From: Verrucosispora sp. WMMD573
GTDB lineage: Bacteria; Actinomycetota; Actinomycetes; Mycobacteriales; Micromonosporaceae
DNA length: 64,000 nt
Assembly: GCF_027497175.1 (NCBI RefSeq)
Contig: NZ_CP114901.1
Location: 372,001 to 436,000, forward strand
Direction of reading: 5' to 3'
The translations under genes were made by a program, and so were the position numbers. Shown piece by piece: positions 61,132-63,937 of the stretch. The notes below the pieces were generated by a model. The model made no database searches. It had not been told where the DNA came from and saw only the letters and a list, made by a program, of their open reading frames with translations. How positions within the stretch are numbered: position 1 is the first letter of the stretch; each line of letters starts with the position of its first letter.

Positions 61132-61299
61132 GTGGCCGACCAGGCCCAGACCTACAACGGTTACTGCGTCAAGTGCAAGGAGAAGCGGGACTTCGAGGGC
61201 CGTGTCGAGGTCTCGAAGACCGGCATGAACATGGCCAAGGGCAAGTGTCCGGTATGTGGCACAACAGTGAACCGCATCCTGGGCAAGGCGAAGGTCTGA
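61132..61299 (+). CDS. DUF5679 family zinc-ribbon protein
   Basis: 55 residues: YCVKCKEKRDFEG and KCPVCGTTVNRILGK give two CxxC pairs, as in the DUF5679 family common in actinobacteria. It is basic and may bind nucleic acid or a protein partner; the function is unknown. GTG 61132 follows a strong AAGGAGGG. A hairpin terminator follows the stop. Confidence 0.87.
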   Translation: MADQAQTYNGYCVKCKEKRDFEGRVEVSKTGMNMAKGKCPVCGTTVNRILGKAKV

Positions 61300-61317
61300 C
61301 GTACGCGTACTACATTC

Positions 61318-61342
61318 GGGGGGTGGCCTGCGGCCACCCCCC
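61318..61342 (+). terminator. Terminator of the DUF5679 gene
   Basis: Perfect 11-bp stem GGGGGGTGGCC / GGCCACCCCCC with a TGC loop, 18 bases after the stop. Confidence 0.8.
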
Positions 61343-61351
61343 GCCCACATG

Positions 61352-61388
61352 CACGGTCACTGTCGGACCACCGACAGTAGTGACCGTG
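61352..61388. repeat. Long inverted repeat next to DnaA-box cluster
   Basis: 15-bp stem, CACGGTCACTGTCGG on the left and CCGACAG-TAG-TGACCGTG on the right with a three-base bulge, loop ACCA. It directly precedes the first DnaA box. Confidence 0.75.
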
Positions 61389-61391
61389 GGC

Positions 61392-61453
61392 TGTGGATAA
61401 CTCGCCGAAACCTGTGGACAGCCCTGGATCTGGGGCCGGCCACCTGTGGACAA
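61392..61453 (+). promoter_or_regulatory. Cluster of three DnaA boxes
   Basis: TGTGGATAA (61392-61400), TGTGGACAG (61413-61421) and TGTGGACAA (61445-61453), all in the same orientation. The first and third are exact complements of TTATCCACA and TTGTCCACA; the second has one difference. Their starts are 21 and 32 bp apart, close to two and three helical turns. Confidence 0.7.
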
Positions 61454-61493
61454 CGATCGACGGAAAGCGCGGACACGGTCACTATTCGTGCTC

Positions 61494-62540
61494 ATGACGC
61501 GAACCGCCGATCAGCCGCCTTCTCCCCGTCCCCGCCTGCTACCGGGGCTCACCCGTCTCTGGCGCGACCGGCACACCCTCCAGCTCGGCCTCGGCCGGGA
61601 GCGGGCGGTCCTGGTCGAGGTGGCCGACCCGCGAGCGGCCCGGCTGCTCGACCTGCTCGACGGCACCCGCAGCGAACGGCAGGTGCTGGCCGGGACGGAA
61701 GTCCGCCCGGAACACGCCCGCGCTCTGCTCGATGCCCTGCGCACCGCCGGTCTGGTGGTGCCGGCGCACACCCTCGTGCCCCGGGACCTCACCGGACCGC
61801 GACGGACCCGCCTTGCCGCCGAGGTCGGCGCGCTGGCGCTGGCCGCCGCCCGGCTGCCGGGCACCCCCGCCCAGGTGCTTCGACGCCGCCTGACCGCCCG
61901 GGTGACGGTCACCGGCAGCGGTCCACTCGGCCCCGCCATCGCGGTAGCACTGGCCCAGGCGGGCGTCGGCCACGTCCATCCCGACCTGCCCGGGGTGGTT
62001 CGCCCGCTCGATCTCGTCGGCACCGGTATCGCCGCCACGGAGATCGGCAGACCGCTCGACGCCGCAGCCCGGGCCGCGGTACTGCGGGCCGCCCCCGGCA
62101 CCGGCACCGGCCCGCTGCGTCGGCCCCGCCCCGACCTGGTCGTGCAACTCGGCTGTGACCGGCCGGCAGCGCTGCTGGCCGCCGGTCATGCCCAACGGCG
62201 GCAGCCGCACCTGCTGGTGGACATCCGGGAGGCAATGCCGACGGTCGGCCCGCTGGTCCGCCCGCCGATCGGCCCCTGCCTGCGCTGTCTCGACCTGCAC
62301 CGGGCCGACCGGGACCCCGGCTGGCCGACGCTCGCGGCCCAGCTCGCCAGCGCCCCGCCCACCCCGGCCTGTGCCGTGAGTCTGCTGCTGGCGGCGACCG
62401 GATACGCCGTCGGTGAGGCGTTGAGCCACCTCGACGGCGGCACCCCCGAGACCCTCGGCGGATCGGTCGAGGTGTTGGCCTCCGGCAACCTCCGGCGACG
62501 CTACTGGCCGCCCCACCCGCGCTGCCGATGCGGCGGCTGA
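61494..62540 (+). CDS. ThiF/E1-like, TOMM cyclodehydratase-like orphan protein
   Basis: 348 residues. An N-terminal helical segment resembling a peptide-binding (RRE-like) domain is followed by a Rossmann core (VTVTGSGPLGPAIAVAL) and LVDIREAMPTVGPLVRPP, then the zinc-type pairs CLRC and CRC(G) at the very end. It resembles the E1-like proteins of thiazole/oxazole peptide pathways, but the D-x-N-x-x-R catalytic block of E1 enzymes is not visible. No precursor peptide or YcaO gene lies nearby. ATG 61494 is used. Confidence 0.72.
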   Translation: MTRTADQPPSPRPRLLPGLTRLWRDRHTLQLGLGRERAVLVEVADPRAARLLDLLDGTRSERQVLAGTEVRPEHARALLDALRTAGLVVPAHTLVPRDLTGPRRTRLAAEVGALALAAARLPGTPAQVLRRRLTARVTVTGSGPLGPAIAVALAQAGVGHVHPDLPGVVRPLDLVGTGIAATEIGRPLDAAARAAVLRAAPGTGTGPLRRPRPDLVVQLGCDRPAALLAAGHAQRRQPHLLVDIREAMPTVGPLVRPPIGPCLRCLDLHRADRDPGWPTLAAQLASAPPTPACAVSLLLAATGYAVGEALSHLDGGTPETLGGSVEVLASGNLRRRYWPPHPRCRCGG

Positions 62541-62596
62541 CCGATGGGCCGGCAGCGGGTGCGCCTGCACGGCAGCAGCGGGCCGGCCGAGTCGGT

Positions 62597-62602
62597 AACA
62601 AT
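62597..62602 (+). promoter_or_regulatory. -10 hexamer AACAAT for a leaderless start
   Basis: TAACAAT followed by six bases and GTG 62609; an alternative ATG at 62601 is out of frame. Confidence 0.5.
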
Positions 62603-62608
62603 GACCGA

Positions 62609-63937
62609 GTGACCGACATCCCGCGCCGGGCCGTGTCCCGGACCGCCAAGCTCGCCGCTCTGCCGCTCGGCTTCGCCGGACGGACCGTCCTCGGCATGGG
62701 AAAGCGCGTCACCGGGCTCGCCTCCGATGTGATCTCCGCAGAGATCCAGCAACGCACGGCAGAGCAGTTGTTCAGCGTCCTCGGGCAGCTCAAGGGCGGG
62801 GCGATGAAGTTCGGTCAGGCGCTGTCGGTGTTCGAGGCCGCCCTCCCGGAGGAGATCGCGGCGCCCTACCGGCAGGCGCTGACGAAACTCCAGGAGGCCG
62901 CGCCGCCGCTGCCCGCCGCCAGCGTGCACAAGGTGCTGGCCGAGCAGCTGGGGCCAGCCTGGCGGGACCGGTTCGTGAGTTTCGACGACTCCCCGGCCGC
63001 CGCGGCAAGCATCGGGCAGGTGCACCGGGCCATCTGGCGGCTACCGGACGGTTCCGGCCGCGACGTCGCCGTGAAAATCCAGTATCCCGGTGCCGGTGAC
63101 GCCCTGCTCGCCGACCTGAAGCAGCTCTCCCGGCTCGGCGGCATGTTCCGGGCCATCCAGCCGGGGCTCGACATCAAGCCGCTCCTGGCCGAGCTGCGGG
63201 AGAGGATCACCGAGGAGCTGGACTACGAGCTGGAGGCGGAGTCGCAGCGGGCCTTCGCCGCCGGGTACGCCGACGACCCGGAAATCTACGTGCCGGAGGT
63301 CTGCTTCGCCTCGTCCCGCGTCCTGGTGACCGAGTGGATCGAGGGCACCCCGCTGGCCGACATCATCCGCTCCGGCAGCGAGGAGCAGCGCGACGCGGCG
63401 GGCCGCCTGATGGCCACCCTCCATCTCTCCGCGCCGGCTCGGGCCGGGCTGTTGCATGCCGACCCGCATCCGGGAAACTTCCGGCTGCTGCCCGACGGCC
63501 GGCTCGGCGTGATCGACTTCGGGGCGGTGGCCCGGATGCCGGAGGGTACGCCGGAACCGATCGGTCGAATCGCCGGGCTGGCCCTGCGCGGCGACGCCGA
63601 CGGGGTGGAGGCCGGGCTGCGGGCCGAGGGCTTCGTCAGTGGCACGGAGCCGATCGACGCGCACGCCCTGTTGGAGTTCCTGCGTCCGATGCTGGAGCCG
63701 ATCGCCGCCGACGAGTTCCGGTTCACCCGGGCCTGGCTGCGGGCCGAAGCGGCCCGGCTGGCGAGCCCCCGCTCCCCGGCGTACCAGTTCAGCCGACAGC
63801 TCAACCTGCCGCCGTCCTACCTGCTCATCCACCGGGTGACGCTCGGGTCGATCGGGGTGCTCTGCCAGCTGGAGGCCAAGGCCCCCTACCGGGGCATCCT
63901 GGAGCGCTGGCTACCGGGATTCGCCGCGGTCGGCTGA
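62609..63937 (+). CDS. ABC1/UbiB-family atypical kinase
   Basis: 442 residues. The family blocks are KGGAMKFGQALS (KxGQ), AAAASIGQVHRA (Ala-rich loop), VAVKIQYPG (Lys), ELDYELEAESQR, LLHADPHPGNF and VIDFGAVARMP (metal-binding DFG). Members bind ATP and support quinone or isoprenoid lipid metabolism at the membrane. It has no clear C-terminal membrane anchor. GTG 62609 is probably the 5' end of the mRNA. Confidence 0.92.
   Translation: MTDIPRRAVSRTAKLAALPLGFAGRTVLGMGKRVTGLASDVISAEIQQRTAEQLFSVLGQLKGGAMKFGQALSVFEAALPEEIAAPYRQALTKLQEAAPPLPAASVHKVLAEQLGPAWRDRFVSFDDSPAAAASIGQVHRAIWRLPDGSGRDVAVKIQYPGAGDALLADLKQLSRLGGMFRAIQPGLDIKPLLAELRERITEELDYELEAESQRAFAAGYADDPEIYVPEVCFASSRVLVTEWIEGTPLADIIRSGSEEQRDAAGRLMATLHLSAPARAGLLHADPHPGNFRLLPDGRLGVIDFGAVARMPEGTPEPIGRIAGLALRGDADGVEAGLRAEGFVSGTEPIDAHALLEFLRPMLEPIAADEFRFTRAWLRAEAARLASPRSPAYQFSRQLNLPPSYLLIHRVTLGSIGVLCQLEAKAPYRGILERWLPGFAAVG

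Follow-up and report, generated by a model that had tools for sequence, protein, structure and literature searches.

Does a cluster of three DnaA boxes that stands apart from any replication genes serve the origin, the DnaA pool of the cell, or the gene that begins right behind it? This question is raised by a short intergenic region in the genome of Verrucosispora sp. WMMD573, located between the gene of a small zinc-ribbon protein and that of a ThiF/MccB-like protein (coordinates below are those of the window, i.e., the whole 64 kb stretch of DNA analysed here). Comparison of homologous promoters makes it reasonably probable that the cluster is the regulatory half of the ThiF-like promoter, being DnaA-responsive, probably activated, and tripled in Micromonosporaceae. 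The sequence case for the narrower statement, that the boxes form part of the promoter of the ThiF-like gene, is strong.

The box cluster and its neighbourhood

The intergenic region and its flanks contain the following features:

61132-61299, + strand: upstream gene, encoding a small DUF5679 zinc-ribbon protein of 55 aa (Pfam PF18930, 56.4 bits, cut-off 27)
61317-61343, + strand: 12-bp GC hairpin 3′ of the DUF5679 stop codon (-28.3 kcal/mol for the fold of 61300-61345), probably the terminator of the DUF5679 gene
61352-61388, strand not assigned: inverted repeat, folding into a 15-pair stem that is closed by a 4-nt loop and interrupted by a 3-nt bulge
61392-61400, + strand: DnaA box 1, TGTGGATAA, exact match to TTRTCCACA, 102 bp before the ThiF-like start
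61413-61421, + strand: DnaA box 2, TGTGGACAG, one mismatch, 81 bp before the ThiF-like start
61445-61453, + strand: DnaA box 3, TGTGGACAA, exact match to TTRTCCACA, 49 bp before the ThiF-like start
61480-61485, + strand: putative -10 hexamer CACTAT, 35 bp from the start of box 3 (YANNNT in relatives)
61494-62540, + strand: ThiF/MccB-like (TOMM leader-binding-like) gene, the presumed target (TIGR03882 below cut-off, weak PF00899)
62609-63937, + strand: ABC1 kinase-like gene (PF03109, 184.7 bits; ORF 62528-63937, start placed by eye from relatives)

The co-oriented boxes described in the original prediction, two exact and one with a single mismatch, were recovered on the + strand at 61392, 61413 and 61445 (boxes 1 and 3 exact, box 2 off by one), with starts 21 and 32 bp apart; these spacings correspond to two and three helical turns, i.e., the boxes are in helical phase. 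The 15-bp stem that had been predicted beside them was borne out by folding, and this inverted repeat may be an operator or a terminator. The window contains three TGTGGAYAR sites, all of them in the cluster, where 0.68 are expected; at least three such sites were reached in 2 of 100 window shuffles, and the exact triple in none of the 100.

Scans of the window for T-tract terminators and for sigma-70-type promoters returned none, and the -10 hexamer CACTAT of this genome is imperfect and is not preceded by TGn. The ThiF-like gene is probably leaderless from ATG 61494; GTG 61446 was considered as its start and rejected, since the relatives fit ATG 61494. The ABC1 kinase-like gene follows 68 bp beyond the ThiF-like gene and may share its promoter or have one of its own; perhaps the promoter serves a ThiF-like/ABC1 unit. 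Further along, past ABC1, are the genes of a WhiB-like protein with an RGRPRK tail and of an HRDC-domain UvrD helicase. The order DUF2342, YgjP-like, DUF5679, ThiF-like and ABC1 is widely conserved across the class. Note also that in other families three DnaA-like boxes stand upstream of the YgjP-like gene (L106 7620-7665, L107 5634-5702, L108 7917-7984), mostly of the TGTGGAYGA type and spaced by 22-23 or 45 bp.

DnaA boxes in the rest of the genome

Strict DnaA boxes number 45 in this genome (6.50 Mb, one contig), against 18 for the reversed pattern. Such a number speaks for chance matches or a composition artefact, a reading that shuffle and reversed-pattern controls, held-out loci and cross-family conservation refute and to which we attach practically no weight. 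The original prediction had regarded many equally dense clusters genome-wide as an argument against itself, and on this point the scan gave a divided answer: other clusters do exist (15 close box pairs in 13 places, against 0 in the reversed control), 61392-61453 being one of the 13, but this cluster is the sole match to the triple pattern in the genome and its box-to-minus-10 arrangement is unique among 50 own-genome contexts. That is, YANNNT at 35-38 bp was found in 1 of the 50 TGTGGAYAR contexts, namely at box 3, the contexts coming from the 15 pair loci and 20 fetched stretches and thus covering not quite all boxes.

A search of the genome for dnaN was in line with the claim that replication genes are absent near the boxes, giving 0 matches in the window. 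Identity with oriC was rejected, the dnaA-dnaN neighbourhood being absent and dnaN, at 1,484,035 of the contig, lying about 1.05 Mb from the boxes at 433,392.

Conservation of the triple in Micromonosporaceae

Within the family, 109 of 150 genomes (29 of 44 genera) have a match to the strict triple, and none has one to the reversed-pattern control; the expectation that the spacing would be conserved in relatives thus holds for most of them. Part of these 109 genomes carry the triple at other loci, because 13 matches to the triple pattern adjoin no DUF5679; they fall in 12 of the 59 genomes in which DUF5679 was found by protein search (out of 61 family genomes). The strict triple lies just downstream of DUF5679 in 32 of the 59 genomes and not in 27, and the gap between the DUF5679 match and the triple is variable (52-501 bp in the 32 genomes). 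Among 30 returned DUF5679 loci, 21 have three boxes on one strand, spaced at exactly 21/32 bp and at most 350 bp 3′ of DUF5679, the rest having mostly variant box sets. The 27 genomes without a strict triple comprise four in which the own ThiF-like protein was unmatched, four with a distant match elsewhere, and 19 others; by reading, 17 of the latter contain relaxed forms (a pair of boxes at a distance of 31 or 32 bp, an 11/32 spacing, or one or two mismatches), G038 has remnants only, and G030 has none in place.

Of 20 loci from named relatives (18 of Micromonospora or Verrucosispora, 2 of Actinoplanes), 18 carry the strict triple, all of them at 21/32; of the two misfits, L269 keeps boxes 1 and 3 with box 2 altered, and L282 is masked there. 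The strict triple is absent from all 15 genomes of genus g11, where ThiF-like profile matches are partial. In a sample of the phylum without other members of the family, the triple was present in 2 of 396 genomes, both of the same genus as the window, which shows no more than that the triple is not a general feature.

Spacing to the ThiF-like gene

The geometry of the 69 distinct family triples is nearly uniform: 53 are spaced at exactly 21/32 and the others within 1-2 bp of this, box 3 lies 47-51 bp ahead of a start codon in 67, YANNNT follows the start of box 3 by 35-38 bp in 65, and a ThiF-like N-terminus (loose signature) stands behind 66. Because the distance to the start codon is fixed and the gap to DUF5679 varies, the array goes with the ThiF-like gene, not with DUF5679. 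A link to DUF5679 was rejected on this ground and also because the 21/32 triple was found in 0 of 28 DUF5679 loci outside the family.

Recurrence across the class

The class set consisted of 260 bp upstream of 70 ThiF-like genes from 25 families outside Micromonosporaceae (30 returned and 40 fetched loci; those lacking an N-terminal match or at a contig end were mostly left out, and one locus, L176, was mis-anchored and scored as a miss). Of the 70 loci, 43 contain a forward TGTGGANRR box, compared with a shuffle mean of 0.9 and maximum of 6, and box 3 of the window is the counterpart of this single box of other families. With the first base of the last box as reference, YANNNT lies at offset 36 in 28 and at offset 37 in 6 of the 43, and at 29-35 or 38-44 in none. 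The box tends towards the inverted orientation in f85, f89, f90 and f98, four families chosen for inverted boxes, and out of 20 inverted boxes YANNNT is found there at 48 in 11 and at 47 in one. The combined fit thus amounts to 46 of 70 class loci (34 forward and 12 inverted), against 0-1 in 50 shuffles; forward fits occur in 12 of the 25 families, and inverted fits in 3 more.

Since these offsets were read off the same first 70 loci, 20 held-out loci were tested, and 17 of them fit (12 forward, 5 inverted). All eight held-out loci of family f4 fit with the box 111-220 bp before the aligned gene start, indicating that the position of the box is set by the -10 and not by the start codon. In a third set of 18 loci with C-terminal profile matches only, 17 had a forward box within the 1.5 kb stretch and 13 a -10 that fits, including 9 of 12 loci of family f2, which belongs to the same order. 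Misfits number 24 of the 70 class loci (including the mis-anchored L176), 3 of the 20 held-out loci and 5 of the 18 further ones. Consistent placement of the box, as expected of a DnaA-regulated promoter, was found in family and class loci alike.

When promoters were aligned on the -10, a G was found two bases before it in 88% of the forward (34) and 93% of the inverted (14) cases, and a T three bases before it in 41% and 71%, respectively; judged by these frequencies, the aligned class promoters carry a partial extended -10. No clear -35 motif was seen between box and -10, either in the class loci or in the aligned promoters.

Loci without the ThiF-like gene

The original prediction had left three options, namely titration of DnaA, coupling of the ThiF-like gene to replication, and another replication-linked site; coupling has gained from the fixed distances to -10 and start codon and from recurrence across much of the class, and titration has become less likely. 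A titration site of the datA or D78 type, lying beside the ThiF-like gene by chance only, would agree with a triple that is dense and near consensus. Streptomyces box clusters also count in its favour, since H69, H24 and D78 are likewise actinomycete clusters outside oriC and are described as titration sites near oriC. Literature on E. coli, as excerpted, points the same way (PMC12371093). The datA and DARS1/DARS2 sites of E. coli resemble the present cluster in being intergenic groups of DnaA boxes away from oriC, but according to the excerpted sources they act on DnaA itself with the help of IHF or Fis (PMC10950094, PMC13036160), whereas the boxes described here track the promoter of one gene. 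Their spacing to -10 and start codon is fixed, single-box versions stand at the same promoter in other families, and the distance from oriC is about 1 Mb, all of which argues against titration.

Loci that lack the gene bear directly on this alternative. In eight genomes of six genera DUF5679 is kept with no ThiF-like gene beside it, and none of the eight has the boxes, which were sought by two patterns in the 3.5-3.7 kb fetched per locus. In seven of these loci ABC1 lies 118-272 bp from DUF5679, and the gap contains neither TGTGGA nor TCCACA in any of the seven; DUF5679 is turned round in the gene-less loci and points away from ABC1 in seven. The absence of boxes here is a further argument against titration, but two genomes of genus g18, G018 (L029/L070) and G466 (L068), speak for it, as they retain the triple and the -10 with the ThiF-like gene gone (not found by tblastn with same-genus queries; ABC1 within about 170 bp of box 3). 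This pair may reflect recent gene loss, the promoter now standing before ABC1, or boxes that matter without the gene, and on its account our confidence in a DnaA-responsive ThiF-like promoter was lowered a little and that in titration raised a little; titration nevertheless appears highly improbable. ThiF-like genes at other places in the genomes G004, G046, G460, G026 and G007 have no forward box, G007 having one inverted CCGTCCACA; they are counterexamples if each is the moved gene itself and not a paralogue.

The protein that reads the boxes

DnaA probably binds the boxes of the ThiF-like promoter. The exact 9-mers TTATCCACA or TTGTCCACA occur at ThiF-like promoters of several families and in both orientations, and TTGTCCACA is given, in the excerpted source, as the high-affinity DnaA box of Streptomyces coelicolor and Mycobacterium tuberculosis (PMC4285127). 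Among the single class boxes, TGTGGACGA and TGTGGACGG are frequent; they depart from TTRTCCACA at one or two positions. Off-consensus CGA and CGG boxes are found on the dnaA-dnaN side too: in 20 genomes the commonest followers of TGTGGA there were CAA (18), AGA (16), CGA (10), GAA (9), CGC (8) and CGG (8).

A protein other than DnaA that reads the TGTGGANRR element at the actinomycete ThiF-like promoter would account for single boxes being often off consensus (CGA, CGG). It would also fit the mycobacterial DnaA map, in which, as far as the excerpt of the source goes, M. tuberculosis in vitro pull-down and M. smegmatis ChIP-seq yielded five strong regions, with the ThiF-like gene not among them (PMC7738170); as a guess, this map may have missed a site where DnaA sits on one box jointly with RNA polymerase. 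Against another binder stand the exact 9-mers in several families and both orientations, the presence of three boxes close to consensus in a large part of the family, and a correspondence with the origin. The latter was seen in 12 genomes of other families that have a forward box, a small sample with one region cut by a contig end: both genomes whose ThiF box is CAA have oriC-side CAA boxes, as does 1 of the 10 whose ThiF box is CGR. We consider another binder improbable. No published DnaA box at a ThiF-like gene was noticed among the literature matches listed, drawn from a collection with few subscription papers.

Activation or repression

That DnaA activates at the ThiF-like promoter is likely, judging from the position of the boxes. 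In the mechanism that we propose, DnaA would be the binder, and the nearest box, which in the sequence comparison is fixed 35-38 bp before the -10 with no clear -35 between, would place it at about -44, where it would replace the missing -35 contact and help RNA polymerase onto a weak promoter. The unit recurs at the homologous gene class-wide, usually with one box and in some families inverted at 47-48 bp, and is expanded in Micromonosporaceae to three boxes phased at 21 and 32 bp; the extra boxes would add cooperative DnaA. Transcription of the ThiF-like gene would then vary with DnaA in its free or ATP-bound form and, through it, with the state of replication. For the class as a whole, the claim that DnaA is the dedicated activator of a -35-less promoter (forward boxes at 36-37 bp, inverted ones at 47-48 bp) of an orphan E1/RiPP-type enzyme is tentative, falling just short of an even balance.

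Alternatively, DnaA may bind the boxes and repress or fine-tune the ThiF-like gene, for example as ATP-DnaA, by analogy with E. coli nrdAB. Conserved spacing is blind to the sign of regulation, as a repressor would need fixed spacing too. However, the box is placed further upstream than the -35 position instead of overlapping the core promoter, an arrangement usual for activators, and the lack of a clear -35 between box and -10 also argues against repression, which we regard as unlikely. What speaks for repression is that DnaA can work in either direction depending on promoter and nucleotide, as the excerpted source describes (PMC8203912).

Activation by DnaA at the ThiF-like promoter would have parallels in other bacteria. 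The likeness to the nrdAB promoter consists in three DnaA boxes in the promoter region of both, and according to the same excerpt nrdAB is activatable by DnaA (PMC8203912); the differences are that another gene is concerned here, that the boxes are in fixed phase and recur class-wide in single and inverted forms, and that DnaA binding here is predicted. Similarly, at B. subtilis sda and other DnaA-bound promoters, and at Caulobacter gcrA, ftsZ and mipZ, DnaA regulates transcription and thereby couples replication with other functions (PMC8203912, in excerpt), whereas the target here is an orphan ThiF/MccB-like gene and the box-to-minus-10 distance was measured across families. DnaA is known as a transcription factor in a few model bacteria, and the actinobacterial example named in the excerpt is dnaA autoregulation only (PMC8203912). 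If our explanation is true, the ThiF-like promoter would be a second testable class-wide actinobacterial target of DnaA, and a simple promoter on which to study the contact between DnaA and RNA polymerase; it would also give a first hint of what this widespread gene does. If the class-wide claim holds, the modification of peptides or proteins would have been wired to the replication state since long ago, with a three-box phased switch as the sharpened Micromonosporaceae version.

The ThiF-like protein

The ThiF-like protein scores below the curated cut-off of TIGR03882 (TOMM leader-binding; 31.4 versus 36.9 bits), and its match to the ThiF domain (PF00899) is weak. Its predicted structure (mean pLDDT 83.4) is closest to MccB, followed by heterocyclases (TruD), PaaA, MoeB and ThiF. 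The annotated names in named relatives include TOMM precursor leader peptide-binding, ThiF family and hypothetical protein, among others. Of 197 class genomes, 195 are hit by a ThiF-like profile built from 13 proteins (A1), in some cases through generic ThiF domains only. In a pafBC mutant of M. smegmatis one ABC1 family and one ThiF family protein were lower, and the PafBC-type promoter motif is tTGTCRgtg-8 nt-TannnT, according to the excerpted source (PMC5656591). A promoter of the PafBC type was considered and rejected, as a conserved element of that kind was not seen in the aligned promoters.

Further boxes and repeats

Among the box places of this genome, one lies between genes that, from their translations, we take to be dnaA and dnaN, and another between presumed gyrB and gyrA. 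The latter boxes (L009, L010) are located at 1,491 kb, where the GyrA reading frame, judged from translation, seems to bear an intein. A further pair of boxes at 992 kb (L004) stands between genes that, again from translation, are presumably lsr2-like and clpC-like, and three other pairs (L003 at about 942 kb, L011 at about 1,625 kb and L013 at about 2,427 kb) adjoin genes that look to us like AbiEi/DUF559.

The core TGTCGG-N4-CCGACA of the 61352-61388 repeat recurs, partly degenerate, 5′ of box 1 in many Micromonospora loci (L266-L281), and in some other genera of Micromonosporaceae this palindrome is replaced by a CACGTTGAGT-like stretch. Many family promoters (L020-L034) also contain a TGACA-N3-TGTCA inverted repeat over the -10, just 5′ of the start codon, which is possibly an operator.
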